This document shows positions 3,880 to 30,553 of a DNA stretch of 64,000 nt, in pieces (position 1 is the stretch's first letter; the number at the start of each line of letters is the position of its first letter). Source of the stretch: Granulicella paludicola. GTDB lineage: Bacteria; Acidobacteriota; Terriglobia; Terriglobales; Acidobacteriaceae. The DNA lies in NCBI RefSeq assembly GCF_025685545.1, contig NZ_JAGSYC010000021.1, positions 124,001 through 188,000 on the forward strand, given 5' to 3'. The notes under the pieces were generated by a model that saw only the letters and a list, made by a program, of their open reading frames with translations, did no database searches and had not been told where the DNA came from. A program made the translations under genes and the position numbers.

Positions 3880-6408
3880 CTAGAAGGTCTTGACGAACTC
3901 GATCAGGGCTTTCTTGTCCGAGTCATTGAGGCCAGGTTCATCGGGCAGCAAATCTGTGCCGAAGTAGTGTCCCTTGTTCACGATGAAGTCGGGGCATTTG
4001 TTGTACTTCATGAGCGAAGGCTCGACGTTCTTGAAGGTCTCGCGCACCTGCGCGTCGGTGGGGTTGGGTGGTAGGTGCTCGATGTCCTTCTTCAGCTGGT
4101 AGATCAGGTAGGCGACGGCGAAGTTGTGCTTGATGCGCTCCCAGCGGTCCGTACTGTCGCTGAGCAGGTTGATATTGGCGAGCAGATCGACGGGCGTGCC
4201 TGCGGGGATGGGCCCGAGCTGGATGCCATCGGCGCTAAAGAAGTTGGGAAAGAGCTTGTGCGCGAGATGCGTCATGCTGGCCAGCGGCTCCGGCAAGTAA
4301 CCGGAGGAGACCCGGAGATAGCTCTGCTGCGTGGTGCGGTCGATAAGGCTGGGGCCGGGACCGCTCAGGAGATAGACGCCGTCCGGGAAGCTGGACTTCT
4401 GATCACTATCCTTCATGCGCTTTTCGGGCCACAGCATCTGCTCGATGGAGTCGTTGAAGCTGTTCATGCGGGCTTCGACAGACGGGCTGGATTCGAAGTG
4501 GCCGACGGTGTTATTGAGCAGGAAGGGTGCCGTGGACCAGACGCTGATGAGGCTGGGAGGCCGAGTATAACCGCGGCCCCCGTCGGGCATAACGTAGTCG
4601 GACACTTTGCTGGTGTAGGGGTCAGTGATGCGGATGGTGCCGACGGAGGGGAGATCTTTGTAGCTCTGCGAAGAGAAGTTGTCCCAGATGTTGCCAGCGA
4701 GGGCGTTGGTAGCCAGCGGGCTGCAGGCGTTGGTCTGCAGCAGCGTGACAGGGATGCGGGCATCGGTAGAGAGGAAGTTGTCCTGCAGGAAGTCGTCCTT
4801 GAGGACGATGTCGCGCATCTTGGCTTTGTAGTCTTCGGTCTGCGTGAGCTTCCAGTAGCGATTGAAGCAATCGAGGTAGCCTTTGCCGGCGCAGTTGGCG
4901 AGGCCTTCTCCGGGAGCCATGGCAGGCAGCTTGCTGGAGTGGCAGCGGGCGCAGCGTTCAGCGAAGACGATCTTGCCGCGAGTGAGAACGGCCTTGTCTT
5001 TGGTGAGGTACGCGGAACCGCCGGGAGCGTCGGCAAGATGCTGCGGGTCAGTGCTCTTCAACATGAAGAGAGCAAGGTCGACGGTCTGAAGCTCGTTGGC
5101 CTTCCAGTAGCTGGAGTTCTTTTCATTGACGGCGATCTCAATGGGGGTGACCTTCTTGCCGCCGACAAGCGCATTGAAGTGCTGCAGCCACTCTTCGCTG
5201 AAGAGCCCGATGTTGAGGTAGACCCGGTTGAGCGCGCCAAGAGCGCCTACGGAGTCCGAGCCATCTTTGAGGACGTGTGGCGTGTTCACCATGTCCGGCG
5301 CGGTAAAGAACTTAGCCAGGTAGTTATCGGGCGGGACGAACTGGTTGAACTGCTTGTTATCGAGGTTGCCGCCTGTGAGCTTTTCCTGTCCCCAGTTCAG
5401 CGCCATATCAAGGCGAGACTTGAGTCCGTAAACAGCATTCATGGTGCGAGGGTTGTTGATGTTATCGGTGGAGACGAGCGAGGTGTCGAGTGAACCGGGT
5501 CGTGAGGTATGGAAGAGCTGGAAGACGAAGCTGGACTTGTCGCCCTCCCAACCGAAGATACGGTCGATCCAGAAGTATTGCGCGCCGACCATGGAGCTGA
5601 GATTTTCGAGCTGCGGATTGTTGGGGTCGGTTGGCGGTTTGAGCGGGTTAGGCCCGACGTGGCAGAAGCCGCAGGACATACCGACGCGATAGGGCTTGAT
5701 CAGGCTGCGATCGTTGTAATAGCTGGCGTCAGTGTAGTAGCGGACGGGATCCCACTTGGCCTTGGCGGCATCATCGAAAGCGGGGTTCGGGAAGAGTCGC
5801 AGACCAATGACGCCGGTACCTTCGCCGTAATAGGAGCCTACCTTGACGGTGGTACCGCGAGAGCCGATCTTGATGCCAGGATATTTCTGCTCGTTCTCGA
5901 ATGGGTCCGCACCGCACTCGGGCTTGCGCTGGTCGAGCCAGAGACCGAAGTGATTGGGGTCGGGGCCTGTCGCTTTGACATAGCAAGGATCGTTTACGAG
6001 GCCAAGATAGTCCCAGCGATTATCGCGGCTGGCGGGCAGACCGGGGTGCGAGGAGAGTGTTTTTAGGAAGTCGAGCGTGCCGACACTCTTGACGGAGATT
6101 GTGTCCCAGAAGCGATCGTTGCCGCCGGTCCAGACGATCCAGTTATTGCGGCCTTTGACCTCTTCGGGCGAAAGCGCAATGCCGCCGTCCATGTCCTTGA
6201 AGTAATCTTCGTCTGCTCCGGGCATACTCTCGGCGCTGCGGCCTGCAAGGAGGGCCTCATCCTTGACGGTGCCTGCTTTGGAGAGTGGGAAGATGACTGC
6301 CAGCCCGAGCGCGACGATCAAAAGGACGACAAGGACAAGAAAAACCTTTGCCAGGCGGTAAAGCAGGCCATGCGGGCGGGCTTCAGTGTACATAGGTTGA
6401 GGGCTCAT
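3880..6408 (-). CDS. Membrane-anchored di-heme c-type cytochrome
   Basis: 842 residues. One hydrophobic segment at about 20-40 anchors the protein, leaving a large periplasmic part. Two CxxCH haem motifs are visible, CGFCH at 246-250 and CARCH at 486-490, about 240 residues apart. The second is in a typical RGKIVFAERCARCHS cytochrome context. Such wide spacing fits MauG/CcP-like or RoxA-like di-haem proteins, but I cannot assign the family firmly. The start codon overlaps the stop of the GMC oxidoreductase gene (ATGA), so the two are translationally coupled; the cytochrome is the natural electron acceptor for that flavoprotein. A RoxA-type dioxygenase is an alternative, untested here. Confidence 0.8.
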   Translation of the reverse strand: MSPQPMYTEARPHGLLYRLAKVFLVLVVLLIVALGLAVIFPLSKAGTVKDEALLAGRSAESMPGADEDYFKDMDGGIALSPEEVKGRNNWIVWTGGNDRFWDTISVKSVGTLDFLKTLSSHPGLPASRDNRWDYLGLVNDPCYVKATGPDPNHFGLWLDQRKPECGADPFENEQKYPGIKIGSRGTTVKVGSYYGEGTGVIGLRLFPNPAFDDAAKAKWDPVRYYTDASYYNDRSLIKPYRVGMSCGFCHVGPNPLKPPTDPNNPQLENLSSMVGAQYFWIDRIFGWEGDKSSFVFQLFHTSRPGSLDTSLVSTDNINNPRTMNAVYGLKSRLDMALNWGQEKLTGGNLDNKQFNQFVPPDNYLAKFFTAPDMVNTPHVLKDGSDSVGALGALNRVYLNIGLFSEEWLQHFNALVGGKKVTPIEIAVNEKNSSYWKANELQTVDLALFMLKSTDPQHLADAPGGSAYLTKDKAVLTRGKIVFAERCARCHSSKLPAMAPGEGLANCAGKGYLDCFNRYWKLTQTEDYKAKMRDIVLKDDFLQDNFLSTDARIPVTLLQTNACSPLATNALAGNIWDNFSSQSYKDLPSVGTIRITDPYTSKVSDYVMPDGGRGYTRPPSLISVWSTAPFLLNNTVGHFESSPSVEARMNSFNDSIEQMLWPEKRMKDSDQKSSFPDGVYLLSGPGPSLIDRTTQQSYLRVSSGYLPEPLASMTHLAHKLFPNFFSADGIQLGPIPAGTPVDLLANINLLSDSTDRWERIKHNFAVAYLIYQLKKDIEHLPPNPTDAQVRETFKNVEPSLMKYNKCPDFIVNKGHYFGTDLLPDEPGLNDSDKKALIEFVKTF

Positions 6409-21061: not shown

Positions 21062-22213
21062 ATGAGAACAAACAGCGGGGTGATGACTGCCAATAGCGAG
21101 CACAACCCCCATGGAGACGGCAGGTACATCCCGATACTGGATGGTTGGAGAGCCGTAGCGATTCTATTGGTGCTCGCCTTCCACGGCATTTACAATTCCG
21201 ACATCACTGGGTACAAGCACCTGCAACTGGTTAGCCCGTTGGTGGGGCGAGTCGGTGCGATGGGCGTGTTAATCTTTTTCGCCATCAGCGGGTACCTCAT
21301 TACGCAGCGCCTGCTCGTTGAAACTGTCGCTCGCGGTAAGTTTTCCATCCGAGAGTTCTACATTAAGCGCGTCTTTCGCATTCTGCCTCCACTCGCTGCG
21401 TATCTCTTTGTCATAGCCGTCCTCTTTGCTCTCGGAGTCATCCGACTGCAGGCCAGGGACCTAACGGCGCTCGTATTTCTTACCAACTACATTCGAGGCA
21501 CCTGGTACACCAGCCACTTCTGGTCGCTGTCGGTTGAAGAACACTTCTATCTGGTCTGGCCTGTATGCGCCTTCCTGCTGGGATGGCGCCGAGCCATGTG
21601 GGTTGGTTTCGGCGTGATCGCTGCGGTTGCCATCTGGCGTCCGTTGGCATTGCGACAGGTGTCAAACCCTTCGGATGTCGCTGGAGTACTCCAGCACACT
21701 GACATGCGCATCGACTACATCATGATGGGCGCAGTGATGGCGCTTCTCATCCATTTCTATCCTGTGGTACTACCTGCCCTGAAGAAGATGGGGTCAATAT
21801 ATGGTTTGACTGCGCTCGTGCTGCTGCTCTGGCTCTCCACTCGAAACGCCTCGGTCGACATGCGGTCAGTGCAAGCGGTTATTTTCACACTCATGGTTTG
21901 CGTTTCGGCCCTTGCCGATGCAAAGCTGCCGCGCCTGCTTCTGAGCAACCGACCAATCCTCTTTCTAGGGAAAGTTTCCTACAGCCTGTACATCTGGCAG
22001 CAACTCTTTCTCGCGCCCACGACGCTCTCGGGGTGGAACTCGCCAAAGATGCTCCCTTTGAAGTACTTGGCTGCATTCGTTACGGCATACATCAGCTACC
22101 GTTTTATGGAGAAGCCGTTCACTCGCTATGGGCGCTCCATCGTGACTCGGCAACAAGCCCAGCGTCAAGCAGAGGCAAACAACACCCAGCACTCTTCATG
22201 CAGACGCGACTAG
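21062..22213 (+). CDS. Acyltransferase family 3 (OafA/YrhL-like) membrane protein
   Basis: 383 residues with AAGGAA upstream of the ATG. It shows the acyltransferase-3 landmarks: LDGWRAVAILLVLAFHG near the N-terminus (the His is the expected catalytic residue), FFAISGYLIT, RVFRILPP, and LSVEEHFYLVWP, across about ten membrane spans. Members move acetyl or other acyl groups from the cytoplasm to sugars or peptides outside. Four more members lie in the exopolysaccharide region. Whether this copy serves the polysaccharide or the adjacent RiPP cluster cannot be decided from position alone. Confidence 0.88.
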   Translation: MRTNSGVMTANSEHNPHGDGRYIPILDGWRAVAILLVLAFHGIYNSDITGYKHLQLVSPLVGRVGAMGVLIFFAISGYLITQRLLVETVARGKFSIREFYIKRVFRILPPLAAYLFVIAVLFALGVIRLQARDLTALVFLTNYIRGTWYTSHFWSLSVEEHFYLVWPVCAFLLGWRRAMWVGFGVIAAVAIWRPLALRQVSNPSDVAGVLQHTDMRIDYIMMGAVMALLIHFYPVVLPALKKMGSIYGLTALVLLLWLSTRNASVDMRSVQAVIFTLMVCVSALADAKLPRLLLSNRPILFLGKVSYSLYIWQQLFLAPTTLSGWNSPKMLPLKYLAAFVTAYISYRFMEKPFTRYGRSIVTRQQAQRQAEANNTQHSSCRRD

Positions 22214-22361
22214 CCTATGCGCTGAAACCGTAGAGAGCTGGTAATATACCAGTTTCAAATAACGTTCTCCGCAAACGCCACCCTTAGAACGGCACACGCA
22301 AGCCAAAATTTCCGTTTTGCAGGGAACATGACCCTGAATATGGCATCGTTATTATTAACGT

Positions 22362-23558
22362 ATGAAACTTGATCGAGCCTTGGCGTGGAAACTCTACGCA
22401 TTCGCGCAGTTCGGGCTCCCGTTCCCGCTGCGGAAGCCACGGACAACGATAGAAAGACTGCGGCTGAGGTCATTGCGTTCTCGATTCGAACGCCGGAAGC
22501 ATCTTTGGCAGCGAAAATGTCTTTTTATGTTTTTCGCCTGTTCCTATCCCTTCGCGATCGGATTTGAAACATGGCGAAACCTAAGCTTCCTGAAACAATC
22601 CCATCCAGAAGCTGGGCTGGGCGAGTGGCTGCGAATGTATTGGTTGGCTCTGGCCAACAACGTTCCACCGGTGGAGTATGTCCTTTACGGATTTATCGAC
22701 CGAAAGCAGAAGGCCATGGCGAGCCAATACCTCTACTGGATAGACGGGCCGGCAGTTCAGTATCTGAATACCGTGCGTGGCGCCAACAATGAAGACGTTC
22801 AGGACAAAGCGCGTTTTGCTTCCATTTGCTCGAAACATGGGTTGGCGCATGTTGAGTATCTGGGTATATTCCGGCGCGGTGAAGCTGGACCCGGTCTGGA
22901 TGTTCTATCGGCTGAAGAGTTGTGGGTGAAGCCGCTAAGCCTATCGGGAAGCGAGGGCGCAGAGCTCTGGTCCAAGCGATCAGAAGGCTACCAGGCAAGT
23001 GGCGGAAGGGTTCTGACGCGAGAGGATCTGTACGAACAACTCAGCAAGGGAGACTTTTTGCTGCAACAACGGCTCAAGAACCACCCCGCGCTGTCTGAGA
23101 TGACAGACGGACGAATCATGACGCTCCGTGTCATTACTGCCCTTGGAAGAAACGGTGAAGTGGCGCTATTGGGTAATTACCTCTTGTTACCAACAGGTCC
23201 TGGCTTGACCACGACGGGGGGGACAGCTGTTTGCCTGCGATGGGAAGACGGGCGCATGTTACGGCGGCTTGGACAGCCAGGTTTGCGACCAGAAGAGCTT
23301 GGGGAGACTGGCGATGTCATTCCCTTCTTTGCGGAGGCCGTCGAACTATGTCGAAGGGCGCACGCCACTGCATTTCAGCGGTTTGTGACTTTGGGTTGGG
23401 ATGTAGTTTTCACATCGGAAGGTCCAGCTTTGCTGGAGACAAACTCAGGATGGGGAACTTTGGAGTTGCAGCAGCTTTGGGGACCCCTCGGCCTTACCTC
23501 GCTTCCTTCGCTGATCGAACAGGAATGGGCGAGCGCAACGTCGCGACGATTGGTATAG
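22362..23558 (+). CDS. ATP-grasp protein, sugar-transfer-associated type
   Basis: 398 residues. The C-terminal two thirds match the ATP-grasp family found in polysaccharide clusters: VKPLSLSGSEGAEL (about 188-203), LLQQRLKNHP near 230, DGRIMTLRVIT near 250, and a terminal metal-binding ETNSGWGTLELQ. The reaction is unknown, probably ATP-dependent ligation on a glycan or peptide. It sits just upstream of the asparagine-synthetase-like cyclase, so it may be part of the RiPP pathway or the first of the polysaccharide genes. No Shine-Dalgarno is present; TATTAT lies 6 bp before the ATG, compatible with a leaderless mRNA. Confidence 0.75.
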   Translation: MKLDRALAWKLYAFAQFGLPFPLRKPRTTIERLRLRSLRSRFERRKHLWQRKCLFMFFACSYPFAIGFETWRNLSFLKQSHPEAGLGEWLRMYWLALANNVPPVEYVLYGFIDRKQKAMASQYLYWIDGPAVQYLNTVRGANNEDVQDKARFASICSKHGLAHVEYLGIFRRGEAGPGLDVLSAEELWVKPLSLSGSEGAELWSKRSEGYQASGGRVLTREDLYEQLSKGDFLLQQRLKNHPALSEMTDGRIMTLRVITALGRNGEVALLGNYLLLPTGPGLTTTGGTAVCLRWEDGRMLRRLGQPGLRPEELGETGDVIPFFAEAVELCRRAHATAFQRFVTLGWDVVFTSEGPALLETNSGWGTLELQQLWGPLGLTSLPSLIEQEWASATSRRLV

Positions 23559-23607
23559 ATCGGCTGCCTGTATACAGTGCCCATGTGAAAGGATTCGAAA
23601 AATAAAG

Positions 23608-25530
23608 ATGCGACTGATCGCTGGAATCTTGATGCTGAACGGTGAAGGGATATCTACTGAAACACTCCATCTCATGTGTGACGCCATGCGTGCTCCGGCA
23701 GATCGCCCCGCCCACGCTCGCGCTCGCGTAACTGTATGGCAGGAGGGTCCAGTAGGACTCGCCGTGCTGGATTCAGACGGCCATCCCGATTCTCTTTCTA
23801 AAGGACATTCCGGATATGTGCTCGCGGGCGATGTGCGATTGGATGAGCGTGCAGCCCTCCAACACGAACTACGAGTAGCGACGTTGAGCAATGCGGAACA
23901 AGATGAATCCAACCCAGCTAAGGCGAACGCTGCCTTGACCGTGGGAGCGATCGAACGTTGGGGAGAAGAAGCCCCGCTGAAGCTTCTCGGAGACTTCGCC
24001 CTAGCAGGATGGAATCCACAGTCAAGAGAATTAATGCTCGTGCGCGACCCGTTGGGAATCAGACCCATCGTATACGCGTGGCAACCTGGCAAATTCCTCG
24101 CCTTTGCTTCCTTTCCAATCGGCGTCCATGCCTCAGGCATGGTGCCCCGAGAGCTCGATACGACAGCTCTGATCCATGCGTTCTTTATGCAAAGACAGCC
24201 AGGCGAAACGTATTCAGCAGGAGTCAAGGAACTTATACCGGGACATACACTTCGTGTCCGCTGGTCGGGCTCGGATAGCGTGATCCGACTACGTCGCTAC
24301 TGGCGACCAGAGTTGGGGAAATATCGGCACAAGAGTCCGGCGGAAGCGGCAGCAGAGCTGCGTCAATTGATTATTTCAGCCGTTGAAAGCCGGGTTGAGA
24401 GTACTGAAAAAGGCAGCGTAGCAGCTCATCTCAGTGGCGGCTTGGATTCTTCCGCGCTTGCCGTGATCGCCAGCAGAAAACTTGTGTCCGAGGGGCGAAA
24501 ACTACTTGGCTACTCCTTTCTGATGGAGCCTCAGGAAGGCGTCCTTCATGATGACGAATCCCCTTACGTGGAGGCGGTCCTCGCGCAGGAACCACAGATT
24601 GACTGGATGCCAATATGGCCTCCAGACCCCATCGGATACTTGTATCAACACACCGACATCGATTGGGGACTGAGTCTGTGGGATAGAGATCCTGAGAACA
24701 GGGTGTGCGCGGATGCGAGTGCCAAAGGTGCGAACCTCATTCTCTCGGGCTGGGGCGGGGACGAAGGCGCGACCTTCAACGGGCGTGGCGCTTTGGGAGA
24801 CGCCTTTCTCCGTGGGCGTTGGGGATACTGCCTACGCGAGATCGAGGCTGCTAAGCATTTGCGTGGCTTTTCTCGCAGATCAACGCTGCGAAGCGAGATC
24901 TTCGGTCAGGTAACGCCACTTTGGTTGACTCGGATGCTGGGACTGCGAGGTGATATCCGCGAACTCGCCGCATCATGCATGGCGATGTTAGCGAAGGATT
25001 CCGTATCGGCCGCGCAAGATCTTCCATGGACCTGGACGGAGATAACACCGAACGTTCGCCAGAATCAACTCAATCTTTTGAGAAGTCACCATCTGGCAGT
25101 ACGCGCAACAAATTGGGCCTCTATAGGCGCCCGTTACGGCCAAGCCTTTACCTTTCCACTACTGGACAGGCGAGTTGTAGAGTTTGTGCTATCGCTACCC
25201 GCTGAGTGGCACATGCGCGAGGCACGCAAGCGAAGGGTCTTTCGGGATGCAATGGAGAACATTCTCCCCGAAAAAATCAGATGGCGCTTCGATAAGATGT
25301 CCCCGTTCCCCACAGCAGTCGGCACATTGCTTAAGGAATCACCGGCGATACTGAAGAGCGCAAATCAGCTCGCTAAAGTGCCGTTAGTGCTGAAAATCTT
25401 CAACATAGAAGCGGCATGCGCGGCCATCGTTTCGGCACGCAAGTCTGGCGAAGAGGATAGCTCGCTATTTCTGAGCGCAACACGAGCCCTCGATATGGCG
25501 CGCTATATCGAGGAGCACTTTGCCAAGTGA
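23608..25530 (+). CDS. Asparagine-synthetase-like lasso cyclase (C protein)
   Basis: 640 residues, class-B asparagine synthetase architecture. The N-terminal glutaminase-like half starts MRLIAG and so lacks the catalytic Cys2, making glutamine hydrolysis unlikely. The synthetase half has the PP-loop SGGLDSS at 276-282 and the motif SGWGGDEG near 378. Lasso cyclases of this kind adenylate an Asp/Glu side chain of the precursor core and close an isopeptide bond with the core N-terminus. The neighbours PqqD-like, HPr-kinase-like and B2 genes fix the assignment as RiPP cyclase rather than asparagine synthetase. It is upstream of the precursor gene, separated by 199 bp that hold a promoter candidate. 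Confidence 0.85.
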   Translation: MRLIAGILMLNGEGISTETLHLMCDAMRAPADRPAHARARVTVWQEGPVGLAVLDSDGHPDSLSKGHSGYVLAGDVRLDERAALQHELRVATLSNAEQDESNPAKANAALTVGAIERWGEEAPLKLLGDFALAGWNPQSRELMLVRDPLGIRPIVYAWQPGKFLAFASFPIGVHASGMVPRELDTTALIHAFFMQRQPGETYSAGVKELIPGHTLRVRWSGSDSVIRLRRYWRPELGKYRHKSPAEAAAELRQLIISAVESRVESTEKGSVAAHLSGGLDSSALAVIASRKLVSEGRKLLGYSFLMEPQEGVLHDDESPYVEAVLAQEPQIDWMPIWPPDPIGYLYQHTDIDWGLSLWDRDPENRVCADASAKGANLILSGWGGDEGATFNGRGALGDAFLRGRWGYCLREIEAAKHLRGFSRRSTLRSEIFGQVTPLWLTRMLGLRGDIRELAASCMAMLAKDSVSAAQDLPWTWTEITPNVRQNQLNLLRSHHLAVRATNWASIGARYGQAFTFPLLDRRVVEFVLSLPAEWHMREARKRRVFRDAMENILPEKIRWRFDKMSPFPTAVGTLLKESPAILKSANQLAKVPLVLKIFNIEAACAAIVSARKSGEEDSSLFLSATRALDMARYIEEHFAK

Positions 25531-25597
25531 TTTGATGACGCCGTACCAGTAGAAATCGAGAGTCGAATGGCCCATGACCTGAAAGTTTTCCCCCTAT

Positions 25598-25614
25598 TTT
25601 CCCATTTCGGGAAA
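25598..25614. repeat. Short inverted repeat upstream of precursor gene
   Basis: TTTCCC (25598-25603) and GGGAAA (25609-25614) around ATTTC. It lies about 30 bp upstream of the candidate -35 element, in a position suited to an operator; it has no T-run for termination. Confidence 0.25.
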
Positions 25615-25641
25615 CGAAAACCACTATAGTCACACGTTCAA

Positions 25642-25670
25642 TTGACCGTAGGGAGAGGATGAAATATTTT
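25642..25670 (+). promoter_or_regulatory. Candidate promoter of the RiPP precursor
   Basis: TTGACC (25642-25647), a 17-bp spacer and TATTTT (25665-25670), about 60 bp upstream of the precursor start. It would give the precursor its own, stronger transcription than the cyclase. Confidence 0.4.
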
Positions 25671-25729
25671 TCAAATAGGCGGCAAAAGCACGATAAGCCT
25701 GCATCGTACTCGACTACAAGGAGATTTAC

Positions 25730-25897
25730 ATGAGCCACCCAGCGACCAATTCCCCGCAGGCACGCGCACAAAAGCAGTCTTGGAGTAAGCCAATACTAAC
25801 CAGCCTCAGCTTGGGCGACGCTGAAGCCACAAAGACGCTTGGTGTCGGCGAAGTTCTCATCTCAGGCATCAACTATCGCCTTGCAGGTGGCTCTTAA
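25730..25897 (+). CDS. RiPP (lasso-type) precursor peptide, 55 residues
   Basis: An ATG with an excellent ribosome site (AAGGAG, 6 nt spacing) opens 55 codons between the cyclase and the PqqD-like gene. The leader contains W18-S-K-P21-I-L23, matching the lasso leader pattern Y/W-x-x-P-x-L that PqqD-like proteins bind. Thr34 and Thr36 are candidates for the -2 Thr. The C-terminal part reads KTLGVGEVLI (35-44) then SGINYRLAGGS (45-55), ending in Ser. If the core starts at Gly38, the only acid, Glu41, is at position 4 and there is no Asp/Glu at 7-9. Starts at Ala33, Thr34 or Lys35 would put Glu41 at 9, 8 or 7 but do not place Thr at -2. The ring therefore cannot be assigned by the usual rules. 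Confidence 0.8.
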   Translation: MSHPATNSPQARAQKQSWSKPILTSLSLGDAEATKTLGVGEVLISGINYRLAGGS

Positions 25898-25965
25898 GAA
25901 TTGCGCTGCGGCTTGAAACAAAAAAGCTGCGGCAAATAGTAAATAGTTAACTAAATGTTGCGAAC

Positions 25966-25997
25966 GGCGGGCAATGGCATCTTCTGCATTTCCCGCC
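25966..25997 (+). terminator. Hairpin between precursor and maturation genes (attenuator candidate)
   Basis: GGCGGG (25966-25971) pairs with CCCGCC (25992-25997), extended inward by AATG/CATT across one mismatch, and TTT follows. It lies about 70 bp after the precursor stop. A leaky terminator here would favour precursor over enzyme expression, as is common in RiPP operons. Confidence 0.4.
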
Positions 25998-26096
25998 TTT
26001 CACAGCCCACAACAGTCAAAGAACTCTGCCCTCCCAGTTTGCGCCTTAGTAAAGGCGGGCTAGTGCTTTCGTCTTCATTTGACCAACGGATATTTT

Positions 26097-26405
26097 ATGC
26101 CAACAGCAATTTTTAAGGCGGAGCATCTAGAAGGGCTTGTACTTGTTCACTCTGAGCACTGTATTGAGGCACGCATTGGCGAGGAAGTGGTAATGATGGA
26201 CGCGGAACAGGGATTTTGTTTTGGCCTTGACACGACCGGTTCATTCATATGGGAGCAACTCAAAACACCAATCTCGGTCCCGGCCTTGATCCAGAGCTGC
26301 AGCGATCATTTTGATGCCCCCGAAGGCACAATTGAAGAGGACGTCAAACAGCTCCTACTAGAGCTATTGGCAAAGAAGTTAATCATCTCGAGTGTATTTG
26401 AGTGA
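26097..26405 (+). CDS. PqqD-like RiPP recognition protein (B1)
   Basis: 102 residues from ATG 26097; an upstream TTG at 26079 is less likely. The sequence is a PqqD/RRE fold: beta-strand region VMMDAEQGFCFGLDTTGSFIWE, then the helical EEDVKQLLLELLAKKLI. Such proteins are wHTH domains that clamp the precursor leader as an extra beta strand and present it to the B2 protease and cyclase. The stop overlaps the GTG start of the kinase-like gene (GTGA). It lies 199 bp after the precursor, with a hairpin in between. Confidence 0.85.
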   Translation: MPTAIFKAEHLEGLVLVHSEHCIEARIGEEVVMMDAEQGFCFGLDTTGSFIWEQLKTPISVPALIQSCSDHFDAPEGTIEEDVKQLLLELLAKKLIISSVFE

Positions 26406-27355
26406 AAGTGCCTCACTCGGCTCCAGGTACGCAGTACGGGCCTTACTATGTATGCGGCTGGAAGCTCGTTTCAGCGACCCCTCTTCCTGAGCTGCTACCG
26501 TGGGCTGGCGATGACCGTGAGCCTGACGTAATTGTCGATTACGACGAAATACTTCCGGACGTGAGAGAGACGGCGTTTGAGCTTTTAGAGCACGACACGC
26601 TCCGCATCAACTTCGAAGGCAACGTATCAATCGACGTGCCGAAATCAGGCGCGTGCCTTCAAGTTCACATGGCCCAAAGTAGCGACCTTCTCATGGTTCG
26701 CAATTATCTCTACGGAACTGGTCTCGCGGCACTTTGTTACCGGCATGGGCTTTTACCCTTGCATGGCTCCGCTGCACGGGTGGGCGATGAAGCAGTCATC
26801 TTTTCCGGTGATAGCGGCGCAGGAAAGTCCACGCTGGCAACGGCAATGGCTCGACGGGGACACCGTCTGCTGAGCGATGATGTTTGCCCTTTCGATTTTT
26901 GTGGCGTCGGGCCTCGTCCACTGCTTCGTTCTGCGTTCCCACGCGTCAAGTTGTTAGCCGACGCAATCGAAGGTTTCGGCTTCGGGAAAGGGACCGTGTA
27001 CACGGAGTCCCCACGCGGAACAAAGGGGCACTTCGGGATGGTGTCTGTATACGCGGAGGAAAGCATCTCAAGCCTGCCAGTGTCCGCCATCTATATGCTG
27101 GGCGAATCGAAGGATGAGGGAATACGCGCGCGGTCGCTCCAAAACCAAGAGGCCTTCCGGGTAGTCGGGGAACAAATCCACAGATCGGGAGTCGGAGAAT
27201 TATTGAACCTGCGGGGCCAGACGTTCAGCCAGCTCGTAAAGCTTATCTCCTCTGTTCCGATTTACGTCTTGGAACGCCCCCGAGGCTTCGATCTCCTTGA
27301 TCGCACAGTTGACTTCATCGAAAGTCAGCACGCAAATGAGGGTCGAATACCGTAA
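26402..27355 (+). CDS. HPr-kinase-like protein of RiPP cluster
   Basis: 317 residues from a GTG that overlaps the PqqD stop. The P-loop GDSGAGKST is at 136-144, preceded by LPLHGSAA, and SDDVCPFD supplies the acidic metal-binding pair. It lacks the N-terminal domain of true HPr kinase/phosphatase, and no PTS gene is nearby. Homologues in lasso clusters (the paeninodin type) phosphorylate the C-terminal Ser of the precursor, and the precursor here does end in Ser. That reaction is the leading hypothesis; the sequence alone does not prove activity. Confidence 0.8.
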   Translation: MKVPHSAPGTQYGPYYVCGWKLVSATPLPELLPWAGDDREPDVIVDYDEILPDVRETAFELLEHDTLRINFEGNVSIDVPKSGACLQVHMAQSSDLLMVRNYLYGTGLAALCYRHGLLPLHGSAARVGDEAVIFSGDSGAGKSTLATAMARRGHRLLSDDVCPFDFCGVGPRPLLRSAFPRVKLLADAIEGFGFGKGTVYTESPRGTKGHFGMVSVYAEESISSLPVSAIYMLGESKDEGIRARSLQNQEAFRVVGEQIHRSGVGELLNLRGQTFSQLVKLISSVPIYVLERPRGFDLLDRTVDFIESQHANEGRIP

Positions 27356-27860
27356 GCTTATTGTTGCTATGAGCTTGCGCCACCGAGTTCGCCTCCTTCC
27401 CCTAGCCGCCGAAGCATCCTGGTGGCTAGGCGTAACATGGCTTTTGGTGGATCTTTTTCCAGGGCATCTCTACCTCCGATTGTTACCACCAAAGCGGACC
27501 CCGTTACCTTACGAGGCACCCGACTCCCTCCGCCCGGATCCGAGAGTACACAAAATAGCGAACGTGGTAAAGTTCATCTCGAAGCGGCTTCCTGTTCGCT
27601 CCGTGTGCATCCATCGCGGCATTGCTGTAGACAGGATGCTGAGGAGCCGCGGTATCCAACGAGTAATGCACTACGGTGTGCTTCGCGAAAACGGTGCTCT
27701 CAAAGCACACGTATGGATTACCTCGGCAGGTTTTGGGATAATTGGCACCCACGAAGCTGCACCATATACGGAGGTCGCGCAGTTTGTTGAGGTACCTCAG
27801 AGTTCCCTTTCTGTCTTCCTGACCGCTACAGGCATCGAACAGACTGACCCTGGAGAGTGA
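27336..27860 (+). CDS. Lasso B2 transglutaminase-like leader protease
   Basis: 174 residues from ATG 27336, which overlaps the kinase gene by 20 bp; ATG 27369 is an alternative. The core has catalytic Cys91 in RSVCIHRG and His125 in KAHVWIT, the arrangement of the transglutaminase-like (Transglut_core3) B2 proteins. The N-terminal third is hydrophobic and Leu/Trp-rich, as usual for B2. It should remove the leader peptide bound by the PqqD-like B1 protein. The usual third residue (Asp) after the His is not obvious here. Confidence 0.85.
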   Translation: MRVEYRKLIVAMSLRHRVRLLPLAAEASWWLGVTWLLVDLFPGHLYLRLLPPKRTPLPYEAPDSLRPDPRVHKIANVVKFISKRLPVRSVCIHRGIAVDRMLRSRGIQRVMHYGVLRENGALKAHVWITSAGFGIIGTHEAAPYTEVAQFVEVPQSSLSVFLTATGIEQTDPGE

Positions 27861-27979
27861 CCAGAACCACGGGTAGCTGAGACAGAGTTGCGGCCGGTAG
27901 AGAACGCCGTACACTCAAGAGTCAGGCGAAGACACTAACACCGATTACGCCTGCGAGAAAGAATGGGGCCAAAATTCAG

Positions 27980-29182
27980 ATGTTGTTTCCGGACTTTCCC
28001 AGTCACTTCCGACTCATGCTGTTCTCGGCTCGGGTGCCGCTCACGGCATCTGATCAGGAACAAATCCTAAAGACACTTGATGAACCTATCGACTGGGAGG
28101 AATTTGTTAGAGTTGTTTGTGTTCATCGGGTCGCTCCTATTGTCCTGGGTGGGCTGAAGTTAGCGGCACCGGAGCGCATCCCGAAGACTGTCCTCCGTAC
28201 CTTCACCAGGATCACGCAGGCGAACTCCAAGCGTGTGGTGCAAAGCACTCTCGAGACGCAGCGCATCGCAAGGGCTCTTCAGCAGCAGGGCTTCCAAGTG
28301 ACCGTACTCAAAGGTGCATTGCTCTCCGAACTCATCTACAGTGATCCGTTCCGGCGATATTCGGTAGATCTGGACCTTATGACCTCCGATCAGGACCTTG
28401 ATCGACAGATCCTCTGTATGAGCGACTTGGGCTACGAGCTCGTAATGCCATCCACAAAGCTCACGCCACGTCGGCTTCGTTCCTACAGTCGCTATCGGAA
28501 GGATTTTTCATTCAAGCACAAGCGATCCGGTGTCATGGTCGATCTACATTGGAGACTTTTCAATAACGTCGAACACAAGGCCAACCTCCTAGCTCAGAGT
28601 TGCGTTCCGATGAAGGGAAAGCTCTTCGGCGAGGGCTGCTACATGTTGGCCCCCGTGGATCAATTCCTTTATTCCGCTGCACACGGAGTTTCGGATGCTT
28701 GGATTTACCTGAAGAGCCTTATTGATTTTGCGGCTTTCCTGCGCCGACTGACGCAGTCGGAACTGGAAGAAGCGATCGTCCGTGCAACGAAGCTGGGCCT
28801 ACTTCCACAAATAAGTTCAGCCATCCATCTGGCACAAGCTTGGGTCGGAGCTCCGGCGGTGAATGCGCCGTTGCTTCTAACGAGCGACGCTTTCCATCAA
28901 TCGATGTATCGGCAAGTCGTGGATGAATTGCTCAAGACCGAATTCGCACCAAATCGTCTCGATATCACCTTCGCGACCGAGTTTCGTTTAGAACAACACC
29001 TCGTGCCAGGCTTGAAGGGTACCCTCGAGATCATGGGGCGATATATCTTTCGCCCCCGCGTCTGGTCGACTATGGATCTACCAGATACACTTTTTGGCTT
29101 CTACGCGATTCTTGGCCTGCTGGTTCCACCCCGTATGAGTAGAGCTGCCCGTTCTGAGGTCTATCGGGGCATCGAAGCCTAA
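27980..29182 (+). CDS. Nucleotidyltransferase-family protein of RiPP cluster
   Basis: 400 residues. The hallmark of the NTP_transf_5-like family is present: VLKGALLSELIYSDPFRR followed by the metal-binding DLDLM (about 130-137), then a conserved VDLHWRLFN near 190. Genes of this family recur in kinase-containing lasso clusters, where they are proposed to modify the peptide, but I know of no settled reaction. It follows B2 by 119 bp and closes the recognisable RiPP set. No ABC transporter (D protein) is seen nearby. Confidence 0.75.
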   Translation: MLFPDFPSHFRLMLFSARVPLTASDQEQILKTLDEPIDWEEFVRVVCVHRVAPIVLGGLKLAAPERIPKTVLRTFTRITQANSKRVVQSTLETQRIARALQQQGFQVTVLKGALLSELIYSDPFRRYSVDLDLMTSDQDLDRQILCMSDLGYELVMPSTKLTPRRLRSYSRYRKDFSFKHKRSGVMVDLHWRLFNNVEHKANLLAQSCVPMKGKLFGEGCYMLAPVDQFLYSAAHGVSDAWIYLKSLIDFAAFLRRLTQSELEEAIVRATKLGLLPQISSAIHLAQAWVGAPAVNAPLLLTSDAFHQSMYRQVVDELLKTEFAPNRLDITFATEFRLEQHLVPGLKGTLEIMGRYIFRPRVWSTMDLPDTLFGFYAILGLLVPPRMSRAARSEVYRGIEA

Positions 29183-29584
29183 CCTTCTGTGTGTCAATCA
29201 CCTGCTCAAGACCAGACTACAACTAGACGGATTCAAACAACGCCCCGTTCTTGCATCTCCACTTTTGACTAGGTTGTGAGCCAACTCCTTGACTTTGTGG
29301 CACATGTCGCTTACCGTAACATTCGAGTGGGGTCAATCTTTGCCTATTTAGAATGGACACCAGGACAGCCAGGCGTGTAGAAAATCAGCTTTTGTTTGAA
29401 ACGATTTCCCCGCTTGTACCAAGTTGCCTCCGCAAAAGTATAAACTGCGTATCTTCCGGAAAACATCGGTGAATACATGTGATGCGTACAAGCCATGTAG
29501 CATTTCTTTACGATTGCTGCGAAGACTGGCTCATCCGCTCCCCGTTTCAAATCTGTCAATCTTGTGACTGCCAACGGAGGATAT
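29183..29584. other. Intergenic stretch between RiPP set and glycosyltransferase
   Basis: About 400 bp, AT-richer than its neighbours. No supported ORF on either strand; the minus-strand frame across 29344-29910 is mostly antisense to the glycosyltransferase. I see no clear promoter. Confidence 0.45.
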
Positions 29585-30553
29585 GTGCCGGTCCTTTCGA
29601 TCGTTGTACCGCTTTTCAATGATTGGATCTCCTTCGTCACCTTGGTGACGAAGTTGGATGAGTTTGCCGCAACATGCCCGTACAAGGTCTGCATCCTCGG
29701 CATCGATGACGGCTCCAGTGAGCCGGTCGAACCCTTCCTGGGTGCGGTGCCCGACTTTGCCTCGCTTGAGTCTCTTGAGATCGTGCATCTTGCAATCAAC
29801 GTCGGCCACCAGCGGGCTATCGCGACCGGCTTATGTGTCGTCGTCGATGATGCGGCAAGTGACGCTATCGTTGTAATGGATGGCGATGGCGAGGATCCAC
29901 CCGCAGCCATCGCTTCGCTGCTGGCTGCGGCCTCTAACCCAGGACGTTTCTATGTCGTCGCTCAACGTCGTCGTCGCACAGAAAACCTGACGTTCCGGCT
30001 CTCTTATGTTGTGTACAAGGTCATGTTCTCGCTTGTCACCGGCAAGAAGATTAACTTCGGCAACTTCTCCGCGATGTCGATGAGCAATGCTCAGCGACTG
30101 GTTCTCGTTTCAGAATTGTGGAACAATCTTCCTGCGGCTGTTCTTCGTTCCCGAATTCCAATCTCCTTCTGCCCCGTGGACCGCGGCTATCGATACGCTG
30201 GCCGATCGAAGATGAACTTCGTTTCACTCATCGTTCACGGCATGAGTGGCATCTCGGTCTACGCTGATGCAATCTTCGTCCGACTGCTGGTATTTGCCAT
30301 TCTGCTGGCCGTTTCTACCGGTGCCGCGATATGCGCCCTCCTCGTGCTGCGACTATTCTTCCCAACCCACGCAACGCCCGGTTGGGCGACTACCGTAAGC
30401 TTCGGAATGTTGATCATTCTTTTTCAGGTCGGCTTCACGGCACTCTCGTCGAGTTTGATCCTCCTCAATGGTCGCGTCCAGCGGGAGATCTTACCGATTC
30501 ACGACTACAAGCCCTATGTCTCCATGAGGCGCCAGGTTTTCAAACGAAGTTAG
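29585..30553 (+). CDS. Family 2 glycosyltransferase with C-terminal membrane spans
   Basis: 322 residues from GTG 29585, chosen because CGGAGG lies directly upstream and the protein then begins at the family start VLSIVVPLFND. The GT-A domain has IDDGSS (about 45) and DGDGEDPP with the metal-binding DxD near 105. Two membrane helices occur near the C-terminus (about 230-255 and 275-300). This is the layout of polyprenyl-phosphate mannosyl/glucosyltransferases (DPM, GtrB, ArnC-like), which make a lipid-linked sugar donor. The adjacent multi-span protein could be the transferase that uses it. Confidence 0.87.
   Translation: MPVLSIVVPLFNDWISFVTLVTKLDEFAATCPYKVCILGIDDGSSEPVEPFLGAVPDFASLESLEIVHLAINVGHQRAIATGLCVVVDDAASDAIVVMDGDGEDPPAAIASLLAAASNPGRFYVVAQRRRRTENLTFRLSYVVYKVMFSLVTGKKINFGNFSAMSMSNAQRLVLVSELWNNLPAAVLRSRIPISFCPVDRGYRYAGRSKMNFVSLIVHGMSGISVYADAIFVRLLVFAILLAVSTGAAICALLVLRLFFPTHATPGWATTVSFGMLIILFQVGFTALSSSLILLNGRVQREILPIHDYKPYVSMRRQVFKRS

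Follow-up and report, generated by a model that had tools for sequence, protein, structure and literature searches.

A phosphorylated-lasso-like gene cluster of Granulicella paludicola with a cyclase-linked ATP-grasp gene, a conserved Lys-Glu pair and a precursor outside the Thr(-2) rule

A stretch of 64,000 nucleotides from Granulicella paludicola (NCBI RefSeq assembly GCF_025685545.1, contig NZ_JAGSYC010000021.1, positions 124,001 to 188,000 of the forward strand; hereafter the window, with coordinates counted from its first letter) contains a cluster of the kind that makes lasso peptides, which are ribosomally synthesised and post-translationally modified peptides (RiPPs). Seven consecutive genes on the + strand encode an ATP-grasp ligase, an AsnB-type cyclase, a precursor peptide, a PqqD-like B1 protein, an HPr-kinase-like (HPrK-like) kinase, a B2 protease and an NTP_transf_5 protein. 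An earlier note, made from the letters alone, had recognised the cyclase, B1, kinase, B2 and nucleotidyltransferase genes, and Pfam and NCBIfam scans placed all five where the note had put them. The ATP-grasp gene, directly 5' of the cyclase with a gap of ~50 bases, lies outside the coordinates of that note and had been overlooked. The features are as follows.

22362–23558, + strand: ATP-grasp ligase gene (PF14397, sugar-transfer associated ATP-grasp), 398 residues (Pfam, 66.4 bits)
23608–25530, + strand: lasso-type macrolactam synthetase (AsnB/C protein), 640 residues, SGGLDS motif intact (PF00733 above cut-off; tree)
25718–25723, + strand: ribosome-binding site AAGGAG, six bases 5' of the precursor ATG (read directly)
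25730–25897, + strand: precursor peptide gene, 55 residues (top profile rank, homologue P0001, alignment A2)
25781–25798, + strand: leader recognition motif W18-S-K-P21-I-L23 (read directly)
25826–25852, + strand: predicted ring segment Ala33-Thr-Lys35-Thr-Leu-Gly-Val-Gly-Glu41, with the Lys35 codon at 25832–25834 and the Glu41 codon at 25850–25852 (Lys and Glu columns of alignment A2, Lys-Glu spacing)
25892–25894, + strand: codon of the C-terminal Ser55, predicted phosphorylation site (Ser-ending relatives, kinase motif, analogy with paeninodin)
26079–26405, + strand: PqqD-like B1 leader-binding protein, with the ATG at 26097 as the likelier start (PF05402)
26402–27355, + strand: HPrK-like precursor kinase (PF07475, TIGR04352, intact motif)
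27336–27860, + strand: B2 leader protease, transglutaminase-like (PF13471, Transglut_core3, and NF033537, both above cut-off)
27980–29182, + strand: NTP_transf_5 nucleotidyltransferase-like protein (PF14907, 172 bits)

The lasso pair of a B1 protein of the RiPP recognition element type and a B2 protease is present in the window: B1 scored above the cut-off for PF05402 (57 bits) and below it for NF033536 (44 bits), and B2 reached 52.3 bits against a cut-off of 33 for NF033537, with C90 and H124 invariant among five B2 proteins. A paeninodin-type, HPrK-like kinase with an intact motif is also present, its family scores lying under the curated cut-offs; H121, the P-loop and D159-D160 are identical in all six sequences compared. 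The cluster is flanked by an acyltransferase_3 gene (21062–22213) and a family 2 glycosyltransferase gene (29564–30553). No sulfotransferase occurs among the nine window proteins scanned (21062 to 30550, NTP_transf_5 included). Among the genes scanned in related loci (numbered L011 and so on), sulfotransferase genes were found in six (L013, L016, L020, L025, L031 and L098), and no paper on sulfated lasso peptides was recognised in a literature listing.

The cluster and its 55-codon precursor open reading frame (ORF) are real. A precursor profile that left the window out (18 rows of alignment A2 minus the window and P0001, plus L098–L100) ranked 25730–25897 first of 752 window ORFs of 25–150 residues (expect value, E, 0.0065; runner-up 0.24), in agreement with the earlier note, which had placed the precursor at this ORF with its strong ribosome site. 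The profile match is confined to the leader, where the Y/W-x-x-P-x-L pattern of lasso clusters appears as W18-S-K-P21-I-L23, again in agreement with the note. An alternative precursor elsewhere in the cluster, which the note had named as grounds for doubt, was sought and rejected, no other of the 752 ORFs scoring near this one. With the precursor as query, in a search that scores only proteins sharing short exact words, the sole homologue at E up to 1 was P0001, which is 95% identical with three differences, only one of them after the leader (V42L, all other residues from Leu28 to Ser55 being the same); among 101 genomes of relatives, eight matches at E up to 0.1 comprised the window and seven weak ones. 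This single homologue, together with a cyclase that at E 1e-60 matched 4 of the 399 class genomes (window included), would fit an ORF that is not the substrate, or a decayed cluster whose rule-breaking sequence is meaningless. Either case is improbable given the top rank from a profile built without the ORF, the strong ribosome site, Lys and Glu at family positions, and enzyme ORFs that are all open with intact motifs. At the other end of the precursor, Ser55 is invariant in alignment A2, and Ser is C-terminal in 52/52 hits of a precursor profile, but that profile was made from Lys-bearing, Ser-ending sequences, so neither residue gains independent support from its hits.

Genome-mining tools call lasso cores by a Thr at position -2 relative to the core. 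Under this rule the window precursor gives no ring of 7–9 residues: taking Thr36 as Thr(-2) puts Glu at core position 4 and taking Thr34 puts it at position 6, so that the combination of Thr(-2) with Asp/Glu at 7–9 fails, and the arithmetic of the earlier note is correct. Of the two placements the second comes nearer to a legal ring (6 versus 4), and Thr34 could be the true Thr(-2), with Thr36 joined to Glu41 in a ring of 6. This is highly improbable, since it would place Lys35 at -1, to be lost with the leader, leaving the conservation of Lys without explanation, and rings under 7 are not known.

The failure of the rule is not peculiar to the window ORF. A mechanical ORF scan of related loci, which asked for W/Y/F-x-x-P, a K/R close by and a Ser in one of the last two positions (conservation of W, P and Ser is thus by construction), gave 79 precursor-like ORFs in 68 loci, some of which may be non-genes, after hand removal of 20 noise prefixes, of every ORF flagged as lacking an acid and of every Y or F motif, and after addition of three precursors chosen by eye from L098–L100. 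A reading with Thr(-2) and an acid at 7–9 was possible in 58/79 (shuffled tails, 22%), leaving 21/79 without one; among the nearest loci, defined below, the rule-breakers were 5/23 ORFs (two in L011 and one each in L012, L015 and L039). On these counts the Thr(-2) rule holds for most relatives, and part of the group follows it less strictly. Excerpts of a published study describe Ile(-2) proven by experiment in a phosphorylated lasso precursor, report Ile/Val(-2) in Acidobacteriaceae, and cite predicted Ile/Val/Ala(-2) (PMC10368454). The Terriglobus precursor of L039, shared by L102 (same-family genome G945), permits two readings, V-A before a core GYPMG without acid at 7–9, or T-P before KTTPLQTE with a ring of 8 and a long leader. 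This sharing points to Acidobacteriaceae as the probable family of the window. Elsewhere, one acidobacterial cluster (L011:4954-5695) contains two precursor ORFs, with Thr in one and Ile in the other at the equivalent place, and two precursor ORFs ~760 base pairs apart with identical tails occur in a metagenome-assembled genome of the Pseudomonadales (L083:11048-12087). The OY282 genomes (within L043–L089) have several lasso-type cyclase loci each, for example five in OY282519.1, and many of their precursors are of the VRSG or ASGG form, without a Thr(-2) reading.

From residue 33 on, the window precursor has one side-chain acid, Glu41, which is the likely ring acceptor. An acid at 7–9 is possible with a core starting at Ala33 (9), Thr34 (8) or Lys35 (7), just as the note had calculated. 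In the MAFFT alignment, Ala31 falls in the Thr(-2) column, giving core Ala33, a ring of 9 and, like many relatives, Glu at -1. The precursors of L098, L099 and L100 (Acidobacteriota) and L016 (Wallbacteria) read as T-x before a core with Lys at 1 and Glu at 7, which for the window translates to a cut between Thr34 and Lys35, preceded by Ala33, and a ring of 7. Ala33 or Lys35 is favoured as the core start, with no choice between the two. Of the three explanations offered by the note, a shifted leader cut is the best supported and no new ring size is called for; the even spacing of Lys and Glu, and the ATP-grasp gene linked to the cyclase, leave some room for a different bond.

Lys-Glu spacing was counted free of alignment and with the window excluded, in a near set of 25 loci (L011–L031, L039 and L098–L100, drawn from the cyclase profile ranking and a class search; no ORF came from L014, L017 or L019, and in L014 and L019 no precursor was found). 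Lys and Glu were 5–7 residues apart in 23/23 near ORFs from 22 loci (exactly 6 in 17/23; shuffled, 14%), compared to 7/56 ORFs in the remaining 46 loci (shuffled, 6%). L034, L036, L037, L050 and L075, sister to L098–L100 in the cyclase tree, were counted with the remaining loci and not in the near set; their six precursors have no Lys in the ring, and with them the near count is 23/29. Counted from the leader Trp (W), Lys35 of the window stands at W+17, the commonest place in the near set (11/23), and Glu41 at W+23 (7/23), second to W+24 (9/23); the first acid from W+19 onwards falls on W+23 or W+24 in 44/79 related ORFs. In alignment A2, for which 18 precursors were picked by eye from a motif scan (the selection itself makes W18 and P21 invariant), the Glu41 column is nearly invariant and Lys35 falls in the Lys column. 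The earlier note had suggested K-T-L-G-x-G-E as the mark of a separate precursor family and an alignment of short ORFs beside homologous clusters as the check. That alignment bore out conserved Lys and Glu columns and not the block: G-x-G-[DE] is present in the window and P0001, absent from the precursors of the relatives, and was rejected as a family mark. On these alignments and counts, the conserved mark of the family is the Lys-Glu pair.

The steadiness of this pair raises a different bond, in which the side-chain amine of Lys35 would close the ring on Glu41 as a side chain to side chain lactam, made by the cyclase or the ATP-grasp ligase; the residues ahead of Lys would be left as an unbound N-terminal tail, and the leader could be cut imprecisely. 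Alongside the near-set counts, 54 non-redundant precursors were read under the Thr rule (Lys in the core by script construction; P0170, L039 and two Thr-less ORFs from L011 and L012 excluded). Lys was at core position 1 (4), 2 (38), 3 (11) or 4 (1), the Lys-Glu spacing was 5 (1), 6 (24) or 7 (29), hence 6 or 7 in 53/54 sets, and the ring was 7 (4), 8 (11), 9 (37) or 10 (2). Rings of 7 to 10 in one cyclase group look unusual, they grow with Lys position (rho 0.53), and core residue 1 is variable (G, S, A, K, V, L, F or Q), as a side-chain lactam would allow. However, 28/54 sets, mostly much alike, combine spacing 7 with ring 9, and the variances differ only moderately (0.29 for spacing vs 0.44 for ring). 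A ring of fixed size would also produce the weak negative correlation seen between Lys position and spacing (rho -0.29). Further, G, S or A, the usual first residues of lasso rings, occupy position 1 in 42/54 sets, and the sister group around L034 has the same kind of enzymes without a ring Lys. The side-chain lactam is judged unlikely, yet it is retained as a rival to be taken seriously.

The ATP-grasp gene was found by tblastn in 21 of 93 loci besides the window's own. In 13 of these 21, the last sense codon of the ATP-grasp gene lies -6 to +10 bases from the cyclase match, and in L098 a divergent copy begins at the cyclase stop. This overlap or abutment with the cyclase start in 13 related loci suggests that the ligase is probably a gene of the pathway. 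V146-K149, K190, D347, E359 and N361 are invariant among 16 sequences and are typical of ATP-grasp catalysis. Against NCBIfam the protein matched no model at E up to 1, and Pfam gave PF14397 alone. The AlphaFold2 model (mean predicted local distance difference test score 88) has RimK as its nearest Protein Data Bank chain, with later matches to D-Ala-D-Ala ligases, BesA and LysX and also to biotin carboxylases and carbamoyl phosphate synthetase (template modelling score <= about 0.5); the fold class is sure, and the predicted fold says nothing firm on the reaction. Core Lys appears to accompany the ligase in the window-type and L034-type groups, with exceptions and in an association confounded by descent. 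The latter group has a distantly related ATP-grasp, which Pfam confirmed for L034, and all six of its precursors end in FLK[PTV]GS, with Lys in the tail. A strict pairing of ligase and Lys was rejected because of L018, L016, L023–L025 and the L034 group with its tail Lys; in L016 and L023–L025 no ATP-grasp match was found, though Lys is present. In L018 (5580–6994) and L025 (5963–6963), the place upstream of the cyclase where relatives carry ATP-grasp is taken by a 2-oxoglutarate-Fe(II) oxygenase gene, and L018 retains a 185-residue piece matching the C-terminal part of ATP-grasp; ligase loss and oxygenase gain may be linked in these two loci. L011 has a fragment matching the ATP-grasp profile (5192–5437, E 5e-8) between its two precursor ORFs. 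No paper coupling a PF14397 ATP-grasp with lasso clusters was found among titles, abstract openings and portions of PMC8498205, in literature covering few subscription journals.

Cyclase relatives are patchily distributed. A single-sequence scan of genome contigs gave no match and profile A1 was used instead, which detected 123 stretches in named genome records, the best 80 representing 79 distinct loci; in the protein search, 570 of the 7998 candidates scored reached E 1e-40 or better, 120 of which were listed, and P0003 to P0010 came up at 43–61% identity. Beyond the class count, the cyclase was matched, at the limits applied, in 3/396 genomes of the phylum and 2/347 of the order (window included), and the ATP-grasp in 2/398 of the family. 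A plasmid search returned one record, CP131057, identical to L026. In a tree of 59 cyclases, the window pairs with P0003 (62%). The pair belongs to a supported clade of 12 rows, whose other members are Terriglobus L039 and proteins that lack genomic context. This uneven occurrence may reflect horizontal spread of the cluster.

Taken together, a biosynthetic cluster of the phosphorylated-lasso kind, with a relaxed leader cut, a ring closed on Glu41 and tailoring by ATP-grasp and NTP_transf_5 proteins, is the reasonably probable reading; its cut site, bond, threading and modifications are all predictions, drawn from the observed genes and motifs and from the conservation of Lys/Glu and of the ligase-cyclase pairing. 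By family analogy, the PqqD-like B1 would bind W18-x-x-P-x-L23 and the HPrK-like kinase would phosphorylate the C-terminal Ser55. B2 would cut without Thr at -2, most likely releasing a core that starts at Ala33 (cut behind Glu32) or at Lys35 (cut behind Thr34), with Ala at -2 in both cases, and the AsnB-type cyclase would activate Glu41 and join it to the new N-terminus in a ring of 9 or 7. The ATP-grasp ligase and the NTP_transf_5 protein may add further modifications, with Lys35 or the C-terminal carboxylate as the likeliest guesses for the substrate of the ligase. Several points weigh against this reading. An ungapped alignment to relatives such as L018, whose Lys and Glu stand at W+17 and W+23, gives core Thr34, a ring of 8 and Glu32 at -2. 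The window is in the minority, with 58/79 related and 18/23 near ORFs permitting Thr(-2) and a ring of 7–9, and ring size varies somewhat more than the Lys-Glu spacing does. The 12-row clade yields precursors only from the window, P0001 (assigned to the clade on sequence grounds only) and L039 (a poor fit to both rules), so the core start rests on relatives more distant than the window's clade. In addition, the top NCBIfam model of the cyclase, NF033535 (lasso cyclase), scored 219 bits, far under its cut-off of 525, and the kinase stayed below the cut-offs for PF07475 (31.9 vs 33.3 bits) and TIGR04352 (38 bits). A RiPP type in which an AsnB-type cyclase and a co-encoded ATP-grasp act on one core, forming a Lys-Glu lactam or a lasso ring plus a second amide (at Lys or the C-terminus), is a tentative and rather doubtful extension.

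Roughly one in four of the precursor-like ORFs found next to related cyclases escapes the Thr(-2) rule. The Lys-Glu pair and cyclase-linked ligase mark clusters in Acidobacteriota and Pseudomonadota, and the pair only in Wallbacteria. The concrete question posed is which partner the ATP-grasp enzyme joins and which amine closes the ring.

Among known systems, the graspetides also combine an ATP-grasp ligase with a Lys/Glu pair in a short core. Graspetide cores have repeated acidic and Thr/Ser/Lys residues. In contrast, the window core has the single acid Glu41, its ligase belongs to PF14397 and falls outside the graspetide ligase families, and the cluster has the complete lasso set of B1, B2 and C. 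Paeninodin, with a phosphorylated C-terminal Ser, and the pseudomycoidin cluster, with an annotated nucleotidyltransferase, are described in excerpts of PMC9266682, and the window resembles clusters of this type in C, B1, B2, an HPrK-like kinase, a nucleotidyltransferase (pseudomycoidin) and a C-terminal Ser. It differs from them in the ATP-grasp beside the cyclase, the missing Thr(-2), the conserved Lys before the ring acid, and the lack of an ABC transporter among the nine proteins scanned. The bsf clusters with Ile/Val(-2) from Bradymonadales, Acidobacteriaceae and Sphingomonadales, as far as the available portions of PMC10368454 describe them, share B1, B2, C and kinase, a non-Thr residue at -2 and an aromatic-xxP-x-L leader. 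Unlike the window, the bsf core starts with Gly, closure is predicted on Asp8 and the kinase targets Ser3; the term ATP-grasp has zero occurrences in the text of that paper. Against these systems, a phosphorylated-lasso-like cluster is ordinary, and what is new is the combination of a linked ATP-grasp gene, a Lys-Glu signature and a relaxed -2 position.

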